From a virus, in IMG/VR virus record IMGVR_UViG_3300002231_000712, positions 77,495 through 97,975 of that record: a stretch of 20,481 nucleotides of DNA; one strand, 5' to 3'. The notes beneath the pieces were generated by a model that saw nothing but the letters and a program-made list of their open reading frames with translations, was not told the DNA's origin and did no database searches. A program made the position numbers and the translations under genes. This document shows positions 2,683 through 19,196 of this stretch, piece after piece. Positions within the stretch are counted from its first letter, which is position 1, and each line of letters starts with the position of its first letter.

Positions 2683-2946
2683 TTATGTACATTCAGGACA
2701 TAAATATTTTTTTAATATTTTTGCTACAAACTTAAATACTTTAGTAGGATTAATGTTAAATTCTTCTCCTATTTTAAATTCAGTTTCAAAATTTAAGTTT
2801 TCTGTATTAATTCCTGATGCCGAATAAAGATTTTCTTCTAATAAGACTATAGTTACACTACCTGTGTTTCCATTACAATCTTGATATGTTGCACTAAAGG
2901 ATTCTAAGTTTCCATCTATTTCTAAAAGTTCTATGTTACATGTCAT
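2683..2946 (-). CDS. Small cysteine-containing protein of unknown function
   Basis: Starting at ATG 2946 gives 87 residues (MTCNIELLEIDG...). This start overlaps the end of the preceding gene by 11 nt (ATGACATGTAA), a typical translational-coupling arrangement, and is preferred over an ATG 48 nt further upstream, which would lie deeper inside the previous gene. The protein has a short beta module with YQDCNGNTGSVTI, a pattern I associate with small Bacteroidota phage proteins, and ends CPECT. No signal peptide or membrane segment is evident. It is the last gene before the terminator. I cannot assign a function; being in the putative lysis cassette is only positional evidence. Confidence 0.6.
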   Translation of the reverse strand: MTCNIELLEIDGNLESFSATYQDCNGNTGSVTIVLLEENLYSASGINTENLNFETEFKIGEEFNINPTKVFKFVAKILKKYLCPECT

Positions 2947-3205
2947 TTGTTGCAAAGTTTTCTGGAGATAAAGGACTCCCGTTACTAAAATCAATAAGTA
3001 AATTTGTATCTATTAGCTTATAAAAATTTAAAACCATTGTATTACATGAAGTAAACCCGCTTGCTAGTAAAGGGGCAGAAAAATTTAAAATAGATATTAA
3101 GGCTATAATTTGAAAAAAATAACACTTCTTTTCAATTTTTCTATATTCATTTAAGAGTCTGGAGTTTTCTTTTATCGAGTTACTGATTTCTTTTATGGTT
3201 TCCAT
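2936..3205 (-). CDS. Small single-span membrane protein, candidate lysis accessory
   Basis: The 89 residues comprise a charged amphipathic N-terminal helix (METIKEISNSIKENSRLLNE), one hydrophobic segment at about residues 28-51 (CYFFQIIALISILNFSAPLL) and a polar tail. There is no lipobox. The start lies inside the 3' end of the holin-like gene (26-nt overlap, different frame), and its own end overlaps the next gene by 11 nt, so the three are probably translated together. Topology and setting would suit a spanin-like or antiholin-like protein, but nothing in the sequence is diagnostic. The short overlap with two other genes makes a spurious frame less likely, yet the gene should be treated as hypothetical. 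Confidence 0.5.
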   Translation of the reverse strand: METIKEISNSIKENSRLLNEYRKIEKKCYFFQIIALISILNFSAPLLASGFTSCNTMVLNFYKLIDTNLLIDFSNGSPLSPENFATNDM

Positions 3206-3407
3206 AGCTAATTATATTATCTAATTTATCACTTAATCTATCTAGAGCTTCTGCTGTTTTTAACTGAAGATTTACTAGATCTTGCATAAGATTGTCTTTT
3301 TGTGTTTCAATCTTTTCAACTTTCTTATGCATGTAGTAAACAGCTATACATAAAAGTATAATGTTAAAGCCTTGCTCTAAAATTTTTGTTAAAAATTCAT
3401 TTTCCAT
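3180..3407 (-). CDS. BhlA/UviB-like holin candidate
   Basis: The 75-residue protein has the layout of BhlA/UviB-type holins: a short acidic N terminus (MENEFLTKILEQG), one transmembrane segment right after it (about residues 14-26, FNIILLCIAVYYM), then a Lys/Glu-rich heptad-like coiled coil running to about residue 68 with LxDKLDNII near its end. Family members are small inner-membrane proteins linked to pore formation at phage lysis or bacteriocin release. Here it follows the phospholipase gene after a 35-nt AT-rich gap and overlaps a second membrane-protein gene. Other one-TM coiled-coil proteins (for instance Rz-like i-spanins) share this layout, so holin is the best rather than the only reading. 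Confidence 0.55.
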   Translation of the reverse strand: MENEFLTKILEQGFNIILLCIAVYYMHKKVEKIETQKDNLMQDLVNLQLKTAEALDRLSDKLDNIISYGNHKRNQ

Positions 3408-3442: not shown

Positions 3443-4357
3443 TTATTTTGATAATATTTTTATTGCTTCTTTTCTACTTGCTATTCCAAATTCTTTTAAT
3501 TGATTGTCATCTGTTTCATAAATTTCATCTATAAAACCATTAGGACACTCTATTCTTATGTAAGGAATATTCTCTACCTTACATAAAATTTCTTCAATTA
3601 ACGCATCTTTATAACCTAAATAATAAGTACTTATGTTAAGAACCTGAGTAATGACGTTTATAATATTAGAATCCCATGTTTTATTTTCAATTATCCCTCC
3701 TACTTTAATTGGATGTGAATATATTGATAAGTATTCGCTAACATTCTGTAAGTCATCTTTAAGTACCCACATGCCAGGAGAAAATGAAATGAATCCTCCG
3801 TCAATATGGCCATCTTTATGTTGAACGATTGGTGTCATTCTAGAAGACCTTTCTATTAAGTCTATTAAATCATCTATACTTTTAGACTCATTTAATAAAT
3901 TAAAACAAGGAGTTCCATTTTTTCCTAATACTGAAAAAGATATACAGTTAATATCAGAATTCTTTAAAGCATCAAAGTGTTTTTGTTTAAATACTTTCTT
4001 ATACAAAGGTTTTATATCTTGCCATCCTAAATGATTATGACCTCCTATTACTCTGAAAATAGACCCTATTGATATTTTACCATTCTTTTTAAAAGGTTTA
4101 TTTCCTTTATAAGGAAACATGTCTAATACATTTAAGCTTTGCGCAAATTTAATAGCTTCATCTAATAATTCGGGATAAGTGTACGAAGCTGCTATAATTG
4201 GAGCAACCAAAGCACCTGACGATGTACCTATTATTATATCCGGTCTGTCTTTATACTCAGTGCAAACTTTAGCTATTTCAAATAAACCTACAGCTTTAGC
4301 AGCACCTCCAGATATGGACCATACTTTTTTCTTATGAGTGTTTTGTGTATTTTTCAA
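3443..4357 (-). CDS. Patatin-like phospholipase
   Basis: The 304-residue protein has all patatin family landmarks: the oxyanion-hole loop SGGAAKAVGLFE (residues 16-27), the nucleophile elbow G44-T-S46-S-G48, and the catalytic Asp in D186-G-G. The Ser46/Asp186 dyad therefore looks intact, predicting hydrolysis of phospholipid acyl esters. No signal peptide is visible, so it would act from the cytoplasm unless released through a membrane lesion or carried in the virion. It sits at the head of a cassette with two small membrane proteins and is followed downstream by a terminator, suggesting a role in lysis or membrane damage; entry or defence-related roles are alternatives. Length is normal for a minimal patatin domain. 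The frame is intact, 9 nt after the previous gene. Confidence 0.88.
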   Translation of the reverse strand: MKNTQNTHKKKVWSISGGAAKAVGLFEIAKVCTEYKDRPDIIIGTSSGALVAPIIAASYTYPELLDEAIKFAQSLNVLDMFPYKGNKPFKKNGKISIGSIFRVIGGHNHLGWQDIKPLYKKVFKQKHFDALKNSDINCISFSVLGKNGTPCFNLLNESKSIDDLIDLIERSSRMTPIVQHKDGHIDGGFISFSPGMWVLKDDLQNVSEYLSIYSHPIKVGGIIENKTWDSNIINVITQVLNISTYYLGYKDALIEEILCKVENIPYIRIECPNGFIDEIYETDDNQLKEFGIASRKEAIKILSK

Positions 4358-4366
4358 AGATTTTAT

Positions 4367-5017
4367 TTATGTAATTTGATATAATAGAATTTGTCTCATT
4401 GAAAGACCTGTTTCAGGATCTATATAATCTAATTCTGGTATTTGTTCTGTTGTTACTCTGTTTTGTAAATTAAGATTACCTATGCTTTCGTACTCAATTA
4501 TTTCATCTTTCCATAAAATCCATAGTGAATCTATTAAGTTTGAGAAGGCTATTGCTTCTGACTTATCAGGTTCAGGATAGTTTTCTGCTTTACTTCTTAA
4601 TGCTTTTCCTTGAGACTGTAACCATGTCACTTGATTCCTACGAATCATTTTGTTAAATTCCTCTAGTTTTTCTCCTGTAATTTCTTTCTCCAATCTTTTA
4701 GTAAGACCTATTATTCCTGAGTTATCAAAATATTCAATGTCAATAGTAAAAGAAGTAACTGTTTTATTATCACTTGAGTCTAATGTGTAATTGTATTTAA
4801 ATTTTACAGCAGGGTCTCCTATAGTTCCATCGTTATTTAAAAGATGGTAATCTCTAAATGTTCTTCTACCTCTATCAAACTGCCATTGTTTTTGAGATAA
4901 GCCTAATAAAGTTACATCTATAAATGGTAAATCCTTTAATGATGGTACTTGAGATTTATTAATCAAAACATTAAAAACTCTTAAGCTTTCTATATTTTCT
5001 ACGATTGTAGTTATCAT
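4367..5017 (-). CDS. Hypothetical protein, possible virion component
   Basis: The 216-residue protein is not recognised. It opens with a short segment (MITTIVENIESLRV), then beta-rich sequence around VKFKYNYTLDSSDN and TSFTIDIEYFDNSG (residues 75-110). A helical region follows (LTKRLEKEITGEKLEEFNKM, about 116-135) with Trp-containing patches (VTWLQSQGK; SLWILWKDEI), and the C terminus is DPETGLSMRQILLYQIT. No signal peptide, membrane segment or known catalytic motif is seen. It lies 2 nt after a tail protein gene and 9 nt before the phospholipase gene, so it belongs to the same transcript. A tail-tip or baseplate-like role is guessed from position only. Confidence 0.55.
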   Translation of the reverse strand: MITTIVENIESLRVFNVLINKSQVPSLKDLPFIDVTLLGLSQKQWQFDRGRRTFRDYHLLNNDGTIGDPAVKFKYNYTLDSSDNKTVTSFTIDIEYFDNSGIIGLTKRLEKEITGEKLEEFNKMIRRNQVTWLQSQGKALRSKAENYPEPDKSEAIAFSNLIDSLWILWKDEIIEYESIGNLNLQNRVTTEQIPELDYIDPETGLSMRQILLYQIT

Positions 5018-6730: not shown

Positions 6731-7446
6731 ATAAAGAAGTGTTTATATCTTCTATAACTCCTATTTTTACAACCTCTATTACAGAACCACTATTACCGCT
6801 TTGCAATGCCATCCCTACAGTCTTATCTGCAAAAGAAACAGTATTATCTGCAAGTCCTACTATTACATTTCCTGTAGTAGAATTTCTACCTATTCCATAT
6901 AATAAATTACCTTTAACTACATTCTGGTTTAATTGGGCTTTGTAAATGACGTTTTGAGCTTTATCAACTATACCATCATTATTAGAATCATAAACACTTT
7001 TAGACATAGAACCATTCTGTAAAGATTGTATATCAGTTGTATTCTGAGTAATGATTACTTCTGCATCAGCAATATCAGTAGTATTTTGCGTAATGTTTGT
7101 TGAATTAGCAGTAATAGTATTTTTTTCTGCTTGAGTTACAAACTTATTATTAGTTGAAGCATCATCTACTTCATCTGCATTAGGAAAAGCTAATACAGGG
7201 TTTTGTCGGATCCGTATTGTTTACACCGTCACCAGTAACACTCTGTACATCATTAGATGTAGGAAATGGTATATTTCCATTACCTTCTAAAGTAATTCCA
7301 CCTACAGTTTTTATAGGTCTTTTACTTTGTATCGTTGATGTAGTCTCGTCACCACTATTTGTATTAGTAGTATTTAAAAGTTTTGTTACTTCTACATTAG
7401 TAATAGTTCTTGTATTACCTTCTAATACGCTTCCAGCAATGATACC
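6684..7446 (-). CDS. Long tail fibre, second fragment (two frames)
   Basis: After the break at 7447-7457 the fibre continues as FGIIAGSVLEGNTRTITNVE, KLLNTTNTNSGDETTSTIQ and SKRPIKTVGGITLEGNGNIP. The break at the GGG run 7198-7200 interrupts a phrase that should read NTDPTKPVLAFPNADEVDD. The following frame carries heptad-like Asn/Thr repeats (ITANSTNITQNTTDIADAE, IITQNTTDIQSLQNG), probably a coiled-coil shaft, then SKSVYDSNNDGIVDKAQNV and GLADNTVSFADKTVGMALQS. It stops at 6684, just after the homopolymer break. The ATG at 7007 is an internal methionine: coding clearly extends upstream in frame. Confidence 0.65.
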
Positions 7447-8618
7447 AAAAGTCTTTTATTGAAAGCTGTATTTTTTGAAAAACTATCTTCTTTGCCATTT
7501 AAAGCTGTTTGTGTAAGTGTTGATATGGGTTTGTTTAAATCAGAAGTATTATCTACATTACTTAAACCTACATCAGACTTTGTTAAGTCTATGTTTCCCA
7601 CACCTTCCAATGACTGATTTTCAATTGTCTTCAAAGGTCTTTTAGACTGAATACTTGTTAAAGTTTCGTCTCCTGTATTTTGTCCTGTCTGTATAAATAA
7701 CTTAGACTTCTCAAAATCAGTAAAAACATTCGTGTCAGCATTACTTTCATACTTCGTTTTTATTGAAGCAGGAGTTTCTTGCGTGCTAGCTCCTAACTGA
7801 AGAACCCACTCGCTATCTGTACTATCCCAAATATAACTCTGAACATCTTGACCTGATCCTGTATCAACATATGCGTAGCTGCCTATTGGTGCTGATGAAA
7901 AAGCAGACTGAAGAGCTGATAAAGAAATAAACTCTCCTAAAAACTTAGAAGATTCTAAGCCTGACAATTTAGATTTTTCTAAATCAGTAAAAGCATTAGT
8001 ATTACTATTGTTTTCATATTTAGTTTTTATACTAAGATCCGTCTCATCTCCACTGTTTATCCCACTCTGATTACTGAGGTTATTTCGCTCAAGTAGTGTT
8101 ATTATTTCGCCACTTCCTGCTCCAGATATATCACTGTGAGTTGTTACAGAACCATCTGCACTAACTTTAGACAAGTTGGTTAATACATCATTATTACTTG
8201 AAACAGTTGACTGAAAGTCATTAATAGTAGAAGATGACTGAGTTCCGGTATGGTTTCCTCGATCTCTATTATTTACATCTCTATTGTCTAATTGAACAGG
8301 AGTTTCAAATCCAAGATTATTATTTAGCAAGCTAATGTCATCTCCTTGAACTAAAGAGTTTATAAGACTAGCTTGACTAGAAATTACAAATGTATTAACA
8401 TTAGAAATTATAGAACCTGTTCCGTCTATTAATATAATAGTTCCATTATCTACAGATGCTTGTAAATCTAAAGACACTCTAAGCTCTTCTAATTCAAACT
8501 CATTTTCTGCTATATTTGAGTCATACATTACAAAATTAGAAATAGGGTGTGTAAATTCAACATTACCTAAGTCCTCTATAGCAGTAGTACTTACTGTACT
8601 TAAAATTATTTTACTCAT
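7422..8618 (-). CDS. Long tail fibre, N-terminal fragment with internal repeats
   Basis: This is the first 398-codon stretch of a fibre that would total about 890 residues (8618-5915). It contains signatures common in phage fibres: GNHTGTQ (residues 121-127), a GSYAYVDTGSGQDVQSYIWD module (247-266), and SDVGLSNVDNTSDLNKPIS (348-366). A 21-residue unit, KTKYExNxxTNxFTDxEKSKL, occurs at 197-217 and 287-307, and a GDET...SIQSKRP-IKT unit at 316-331 recurs after the break. The last residues from AFNKRL to the stop at 7422 are out of frame. Removing one base from the A4 and T4 runs at 7447-7457 restores AFNKDFGIIAG, a familiar fibre motif. The role would be host recognition at the tail. The start ATG follows the previous stop by 3 nt. 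Confidence 0.75.
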   Translation of the reverse strand: MSKIILSTVSTTAIEDLGNVEFTHPISNFVMYDSNIAENEFELEELRVSLDLQASVDNGTIILIDGTGSIISNVNTFVISSQASLINSLVQGDDISLLNNNLGFETPVQLDNRDVNNRDRGNHTGTQSSSTINDFQSTVSSNNDVLTNLSKVSADGSVTTHSDISGAGSGEIITLLERNNLSNQSGINSGDETDLSIKTKYENNSNTNAFTDLEKSKLSGLESSKFLGEFISLSALQSAFSSAPIGSYAYVDTGSGQDVQSYIWDSTDSEWVLQLGASTQETPASIKTKYESNADTNVFTDFEKSKLFIQTGQNTGDETLTSIQSKRPLKTIENQSLEGVGNIDLTKSDVGLSNVDNTSDLNKPISTLTQTALNGKEDSFSKNTAFNKRLLVSLLEAY

Positions 8619-17593: not shown

Positions 17594-18559
17594 TTAATCT
17601 TCAGTAGATAAGTAAATTGCACCACAACGTGTAATATCAGCAATCATCAATCCACAAGATTTTTCTCTGTGAATAGTATAACCTGATACACCACCTGCTT
17701 GACCTAGTCCTCCATCTGTAATAGGTAGACCAGATTTACCATCATGCTTACCATACCATTTACCATTATAACTAATGTTATAATCACAGTAAGATTCTTG
17801 AACCATACAGATATTGTCTGTTTCACCACCAGCTCCTTGTTGTTTACTTGAACCAAAGTCAAGAATATCAGCTCTCCAAGAGTCAATACATACATTTGTT
17901 CTTACAGGGTGCATTTGTGGACAGAAGTACTGATTATCATAAGCAGGATTTTCCATTACAGAAATGTCAACTGTAAAACCACGATAAGTAGCAAAGTAAG
18001 ATCCATAATCTAAATCACGGAAGTTCTTACCGTTACGAATGAATACAGAATCCACTGTAGTAAATGACTTAGCATCAGCTTTAATCATTCTGTCAAACAT
18101 TTTACGGAACTCACGACCAGCACTCAATACGATTTGTTGTTCACCTTCAGAAATCTTATCTTTCATGATAGAATCAAACCAATCTTCCATTTCTTCTAAA
18201 GAAAGAGACCCGTTATGACGTAAAGTATAACCAGATTCTAGTTGTTCACGAAGACCAGAAGAAGTAAGAATTTGATGTCCTTCAGGAGAAACCAAGTTAT
18301 TTGATTTCTTACCAAACATTAGTGTCCACTCACAGTTCTGATATAATTCGTTAAATGCTTCAGCATCCAAAACAGCCATGAAGCGAGCAAGAGGTTTACC
18401 TTCTACTTTATCACCATAGTCTACCCATAGCATTTTAAGATACTTACCAAATTGATCATCATTAAAGTCACCACGATCAGCAGCTTGTTTAGATCTACGA
18501 GCAGCTTTATCAGATACAGCTACTTTAACAGCATGTTGTTGAATTTGACCTTCGCTTTT
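17594..18559 (-). CDS. Major capsid protein, C-terminal part
   Basis: The MCP continues after the A4 run (18556-18559) with SEGQIQQHAVKVAVSDKAAR and KYLKMLWVDYGDKVEGKPLA, then RFMAVLDAEAFNELYQNC. HK97-fold MCPs of crAss-like phages have the same closing region: DYGSYFATYRGFTVDISVM, a C-P-Q-x-H-P loop, WRADILDFG, then YTIHREKSCGLMIADITRCG and IYLSTED at the TAA. The Lys/Ser-Cys-Gly pair near the end is characteristic in my experience of the family. The reading can be extended upstream to an ATG at 18619, but that lies inside the N-terminal part and is not a start. The whole protein would be about 534 residues, normal for the family. Confidence 0.75.
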   Translation of the reverse strand, partial: KSEGQIQQHAVKVAVSDKAARRSKQAADRGDFNDDQFGKYLKMLWVDYGDKVEGKPLARFMAVLDAEAFNELYQNCEWTLMFGKKSNNLVSPEGHQILTSSGLREQLESGYTLRHNGSLSLEEMEDWFDSIMKDKISEGEQQIVLSAGREFRKMFDRMIKADAKSFTTVDSVFIRNGKNFRDLDYGSYFATYRGFTVDISVMENPAYDNQYFCPQMHPVRTNVCIDSWRADILDFGSSKQQGAGGETDNICMVQESYCDYNISYNGKWYGKHDGKSGLPITDGGLGQAGGVSGYTIHREKSCGLMIADITRCGAIYLSTED

Positions 18560-19196
18560 CGAAGATAGAGTAGAAGTGGAATCCACCAGCATCAATGTTA
18601 TCTTCATCAGCAACTGCACTAGATACTTTACACCATTCTGAACCTACTTCAATAAATTTACGATCCAAATATTCATTAGGGTTAGAAGTGATATACTGTA
18701 TTGTATAACGGAACGCATTAGGTCCTACTTGGTGATGAGAACGAGATTGTCCTTGACCATACGTAGTTACACGACACTGCTTTCTGTTACTTTGAGGTAT
18801 GATAATATCAGATACACTAAACCAAGGCTTATCGACAACAATGTCAAAAGGTTGGTTGTGAAGACCTGGGCGATCATCAGGACATACTGTTTGAGTAATA
18901 CGTGCTTTTTGTGTATTACCTCCGGAAAGCTCCCATCGGAAACCTCTACGATCTATTGTTTTTACTTTACCTTTCGCTTCGGTCATACCTACTAAAGGTT
19001 TTCCGTAATAACGATTAGTTGCTGAGAAGATTTGAGCATAACCCATATTAATGTTAGCTAAACCTTCTGTACCAAATGCTTGTGACAAGTGAAGACCTGA
19101 GATGGTTCCATTAGCTAGGAGACCATCAGTTAGAACGGTAGGTCTCAACTGCCCATTGTGTATATGTTTTGCATTTTCAAATGTAATTGTTGCCAT
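18525..19196 (-). CDS. Major capsid protein, N-terminal part
   Basis: The start ATG 19196 follows an AT-rich leader. The sequence begins MATITFENAKHIHNGQLRPT, then GTEGLANINMGYAQIFSATN, KTIDRRGFRWELSGGNTQKA and WFSVSDIIIPQSNRKQCRVT, in the style of crAss-like MCP N-terminal arms. A conserved-looking SNPNEYLDRKFIEVGSEWCK and GGFHFYSIFE lead to the break. Residues beyond GGFHFYSIFE, down to the stop at 18525, are in the wrong frame; removing one A of the run at 18556-18559 joins E-SEGQIQQH cleanly. As assembled, no intact capsid protein is encoded, which argues for a sequence error because the flanking coding sequence is otherwise perfect. Confidence 0.75.
   Translation of the reverse strand: MATITFENAKHIHNGQLRPTVLTDGLLANGTISGLHLSQAFGTEGLANINMGYAQIFSATNRYYGKPLVGMTEAKGKVKTIDRRGFRWELSGGNTQKARITQTVCPDDRPGLHNQPFDIVVDKPWFSVSDIIIPQSNRKQCRVTTYGQGQSRSHHQVGPNAFRYTIQYITSNPNEYLDRKFIEVGSEWCKVSSAVADEDNIDAGGFHFYSIFEKRRSNSTTCC

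Follow-up and report, generated by a model that had tools for sequence, protein, structure and literature searches.

The window analysed here is a stretch of 20,481 nucleotides (G000:C1:77495-97975) from a 113,381-base virus record (IMG/VR IMGVR_UViG_3300002231_000712), with genes mainly on the minus strand. Read along that strand, a tail-fibre-type gene (7422–8618), matched by several tail fibre/minor tail families in PHROGs, is followed by four genes, the last of which encodes a 216-aa protein with no assigned function (4367–5017) and lies 9 bases upstream of the gene for a patatin-like phospholipase (3443–4357; 304 aa, TTG start). Three short genes come next on the same strand: that of a 75-aa holin-like protein (3180–3407), starting 35 bases past the patatin stop; that of an 89-aa protein (2936–3205), overlapping the 75-aa gene by 26 bases; and that of a 103-aa protein to which no function was assigned (2683–2994) and whose true start may be internal. 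A terminator-like minus-strand hairpin (2587–2560), with an 11-pair stem and a T run, closes this four-gene block, after which come the minus-strand genes for an exonuclease (1548–2489; phrog_298, E = 1.4e-25) and a crAss-type tail ring protein 2 (846–1544; PF25702, E = 3.1e-28). The original prediction of two small membrane proteins beside the patatin holds for the 75-aa and 89-aa products, both encoded downstream, which have one hydrophobic TM-like segment each. By hydropathy, the segment of the 75-aa protein is N-terminal and its C-terminal half is charged (phrog_2429, E = 6e-5); the 89-aa protein had no family match. A terminator had also been said to follow the patatin: the hairpin exists, but three further genes intervene, and the three terminator-like hairpins found in the region are only slightly above the 1.6 expected by chance. 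A search for Bacteroidota-type promoter motifs returned none near the patatin gene.

The carrier is a crAss-like phage, marked by its ring protein 2 and its capsid protein, the latter being similar to the major capsid protein of a second crAss-like contig (L010), which matches Crass_capsid (PF23898). We infer a Bacteroidota host for it from those known for Crassvirales. The major capsid gene is split into two frames in the window (17594–19196) and is a single open frame in the relatives L027 and L028. Just outside the window, the record encodes a phage GroEL/cpn60 (G000:C1:98005-100561; L007:3005-5561, minus strand) interrupted at an SSGDG|TTT site by an intein-like insert with LAGLIDADG homing-endonuclease domains. 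This gene, too, is split into two frames (G000:C1:100097-100140); L028 has a single open frame of 807 aa with the same GroEL start sequence, running into the insert, and L029 and L010 have GroEL frames of ∼500 aa that lack the insert. Both frame splits look like sequencing or assembly errors.

A profile search placed the product of the open frame at 3443–4357 in PF01734 (Patatin), with 41.5 bits against a curated cut-off of 27.7 (E = 2.2e-10), and chance is ruled out for this identification. It is the sole patatin found in the record, and PHROGs, NCBIfam and PADLOC offered no specific subfamily for it. The GxSxG nucleophile and the Asp-Gly-Gly/Ala dyad are both present: the predicted nucleophile is Ser46 in GTSSG (codon at 4220–4222, minus strand) and the predicted catalytic aspartate is Asp186 of D186-G187-G188 (codon at 3800–3802, minus strand). 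The oxyanion loop, read off the translation, comprises S16-G17-G18-A19-A20-K21 (GGAAK, codons 17–21, at 4295–4309, minus strand).

An AlphaFold2 model of moderate confidence (mean pLDDT 60.5, pTM 0.64) has a patatin fold; the model built for the L010 protein scored lower (pLDDT 49.8) and was left out. In the structural search that the original prediction had called for, the top matches were all patatins or cPLA2s, including CapE (Foldseek E = 1.6e-7), PlpD (Z 16.8 over 229 residues), CapV, plant patatin (Z 14.5), and cPLA2, and in a virus structure library the model matched patatins of a phage and of large DNA viruses. The protein is like PlpD, CapV, and CapE (PF01734) in fold, in GxSxG and Asp-Gly-Gly, and in spanning the full length of the catalytic domain, whereas its sequence identity to them is only ∼15%–17%. 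In PlpD, the patatin domain is joined to a secretion barrel. In the 304-aa patatin neither a signal peptide nor an attachment domain was apparent, and model residues from 5–9 to 304 align with catalytic domains; as modelled, the protein would be essentially a single patatin domain, with little room for a virion-attachment domain.

Scans of IMG/VR with the patatins of the group returned only the contigs L009 and L010, besides a near-identical contig (G001), and a phage collection added two huge-phage genomes, LR756500 (L031, 462 kb) and LR756504 (L032). Ser46 and D186GG are invariant between the patatin and its viral homologues in L009 and L010 (49%–50% identity), and GxSxG and DGG are also kept in the two distant homologues (from 462-kb and 636-kb phages), so the catalytic motifs are retained in five out of five phage types. 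The aligned oxyanion loop varies within the group: it reads SGGAAK here, SGAAAR in L009 and L010, the two closer relatives, where the second glycine has become alanine, and SGGSTK in the two huge-phage proteins. The dN/dS of the L009/L010 patatin pair was ∼0.33, and that of the other two pairs was 0.37–0.39, rough values at a dS above 1. The profile match, the invariance of Ser46 and DGG, and the fold confirm a patatin with intact catalytic motifs; as far as sequence can tell, it is an apparently intact, presumably active phospholipase encoded in a structural region, as originally predicted.

Two patatin matches in Acinetobacter "phage" records (MD-2021a), both of one kind, were set aside as probable chromosome; in the one inspected, CAKLQH020000002.1 (L030), the patatin is flanked by bacterial metabolic and transporter genes, which suggests a mislabelled chromosomal contig. 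Scans of genome contigs and a plasmid search yielded no relative, the contig scans using short exact patterns that can miss divergent homologues.

The patatin is considerably more similar between phages than are the genomes that carry it. It is 51% identical between the record and L010, against 25%–34% for nearly all other shared proteins, the exceptions being one capsid piece (22%) and two matches shorter than 40 aa (39%–43%). L010 and the unrelated contig L009, which has a PF04860-type portal, carry patatins that are 65% identical and otherwise match only in a 46-aa segment of fibre-region genes. These disparities show that the patatin gene has moved horizontally between unrelated phages.

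The gene lies at the downstream edge of the tail-fibre region in four of the five phage types, a count that rests on few loci, of which the horizontally linked ones are not independent. A tail-fibre family match is found one gene (<0.8 kb) upstream of the patatin in L009 and LR756500. In the window, the fibre-type gene is ∼3 kb upstream, with four genes between, and in L010 the assignment is indirect, the gene 0.35 kb upstream sharing a segment with an L009 fibre-region gene. The LR756500 fibre gene (L031:2873-4180) has an N-terminus in common with the window's 7422–8618 gene (38% over 87 aa) and shares a segment with the L009 fibre gene (74% over 47 aa). In the fifth type, LR756504, the patatin is found among other genes.

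The membrane-protein genes did not recur in the same way. Among the five phage types, a same-strand small TM gene stands beside the patatin only in the window: no TM gene adjoins it on either side in L010 or LR756500, none lies upstream in L009 (where the contig is cut off downstream), and in LR756504 the patatin is followed only by a convergent 125-aa TM gene on the opposite strand. The original prediction had proposed a survey of such co-occurrence and had held that relatives in which the gene is never next to membrane-protein genes would count against it; the adjacency is not conserved, and this result leans in that direction.

Position at the edge of a fibre region fits a role in lysis, since genes for lysis are frequently found downstream of those for fibres. 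It also fits entry or a role matched to host range, and the best-placed alternative to lysis is a lipase associated with the virion or tail, on or near the fibres, that cleaves outer-membrane lipids at DNA injection. The recurrent fibre-edge position and the fibre segments common to those phages speak for such an enzyme, but no attachment domain is apparent and the patatin-domain alignment covers the entire chain. The corresponding genome slot of Cellulophaga phage phi14:2 (Crassvirales) also argues against it: genes g075–g079 there have no virion-MS notes, whereas most flanking structural genes have them, an argument from position only, as that slot holds no patatin. On balance, we consider an entry function unlikely.

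In phi14:2, this slot, between the tail genes and ring protein 2, is the same one that the patatin occupies in our record, and it holds an endolysin (g077), a PAS-fold protein, and a phosphoesterase. A phosphoesterase is also encoded at this place in L010. Unlike the patatin record, phi14:2 has an endolysin in the slot, an annotation based on similarity to PF00182/COG3179, and its genome yielded no patatin. These observations support the view that the region between the tail genes and ring protein 2 can accommodate genes for non-structural enzymes, those for lysis among them; annotated lysis genes of crAss001 and cr126_1 map elsewhere in the genome.

A second alternative is host manipulation or counter-defence, in which an intracellular lipase alters host membranes or competes with patatin effectors of the CBASS type. 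The CBASS effectors CapE and CapV are among the closest folds, PADLOC gave weak effector matches (best E = 6.3e-5), and the distribution is scattered and horizontally moved. Against this, the catalytic residues are kept, unlike in an inert decoy; PlpD and plant patatin score about equally, so the resemblance is family-wide; and the gene is found among structural and fibre genes, not early genes. The gene does not sit beside a CD-NTase or other CBASS genes: its immediate neighbours had no PADLOC match, and the wider ones are fibre, exonuclease, and ring protein genes. We regard this function as less likely still than one in entry. The patatin family has broad acyl-hydrolase activity, which might also serve auxiliary lipid metabolism, with fatty acid release or lipid remodelling supporting particle production, an improbable role for a gene that sits among structural genes with no metabolic neighbours seen.

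The lysis role had been linked to the lack of a visible endolysin, which is true of the window, but the record encodes an Amidase_3 (N-acetylmuramoyl-L-alanine amidase) endolysin ∼25 kb from the patatin, outside the window (G000:C1:106902-107513; E = 5.3e-18). The near-identical contig G001 also carries the amidase, and L010 encodes an endolysin-like protein (phrog_33083, E = 3.4e-16); the patatin thus occurs in genomes that also encode wall-cutting enzymes or candidate ones. A 310-aa lipoprotein ∼28 kb from the patatin (109648–110580), with an N-terminal lipobox-like LVFTSC and a strong second TM segment, may be built like a one-piece spanin; family searches gave no support for a spanin assignment. 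We rejected the patatin as sole lysis enzyme on account of the Amidase_3 in the same record. Because the record has both this enzyme and the spanin-like lipoprotein, the patatin fills no missing lytic function, and it is an accessory to the ordinary cell-wall lysis enzyme, not a replacement for it. A gene for a ClpP-like protein (phrog_32912) lies close to the endolysin gene in both crAss-like genomes (L023:14686-15180; G000:C1:106439-106891).

Mycobacteriophage LysB is a lipolytic enzyme that aids the breach of the outer envelope at lysis, with mycolyl arabinogalactan as its substrate. The patatin would be like LysB in being a phage lipolytic enzyme for lysis and unlike it in substrate. A patatin and a holin-like protein have been proposed as a lytic cassette near the tail module of phage WO (PMC9203015; KX522565), a phage without the usual endolysin whose host has no detected peptidoglycan (PMC9203015). 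As in phage WO, a patatin of ∼305 aa is found near a small holin-like protein, here its immediate downstream neighbour, in a tail-proximal position, and the holin-like proteins (71 aa in WO and 75 aa here) both have one N-terminal TM segment and a charged C-terminal half. BLASTP gave no significant similarity to phage WO for either the patatins (E = 0.71) or the holin-like proteins (E = 0.11). Unlike phage WO, the carrier has an amidase, so the key premise of that proposal, the absence of a canonical endolysin, is missing here, and the arrangement is not kept among related phages. The arrangement resembles the WO proposal, with no evidence of common origin as a cassette. In the literature searched, no paper linked a patatin to crAss-like phages.

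We tentatively favour a soluble, late, accessory lysis phospholipase, a reading to which we give somewhat less than an even chance and which is nonetheless the single most likely one, ranked above a virion lipase, manipulation of the host or its defences, and lipid metabolism. The role at lysis originally predicted for the phospholipase survives as the most likely one, but three of its supports no longer stand: a missing endolysin, conserved membrane-protein neighbours, and a neighbourhood peculiar to lysis, since the recurring fibre region fits entry or a host-range role as well. In favour of the lysis role are the kept catalytic motifs, the dN/dS values, the patatin fold, and the little room for an attachment domain, together with the closely spaced holin-like and second TM genes, the endolysin in the phi14:2 slot, and the WO precedent. 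Weighing against it are the amidase and spanin-like lipoprotein already in the record, the non-conserved membrane neighbours, and a fibre linkage that fits entry equally well.

If the patatin acts in lysis, it would be a free, soluble phospholipase A/lysophospholipase of the patatin family, made late with the structural genes. Lacking a signal peptide, it would remain cytoplasmic up to the holin step, perhaps with the 75-aa holin-like protein as its partner. It would then cleave host phospholipids, of the inner membrane first and, after the wall has been breached, of the outer one, and in this way accelerate or finish lysis together with the phage amidase and the spanin-like lipoprotein. The gene itself would be an exchangeable accessory at the edge of tail-fibre regions.

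The usual account of how phages attack the Gram-negative envelope comprises a holin, an endolysin, and a spanin (or disruptin). A wider and more doubtful possibility is that a mobile, fibre-linked phospholipase is exchanged among crAss-like, siphovirus-like, and huge phages, is matched to the fibres by which they recognise their hosts, and works together with the usual lysis or entry machinery, adding a fourth function to those that attack the envelope. If this is true, an apparently intact lipid-cleaving enzyme that unrelated phages exchange and keep close to their fibre genes would constitute a further membrane-directed function. The lead worth following is this mobile fibre-region phospholipase and not a missing endolysin. 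It would open the little-studied lysis of crAss-like phages to a concrete test, and would set beside the phage WO proposal a phage in which the wall-cutting enzyme is retained.
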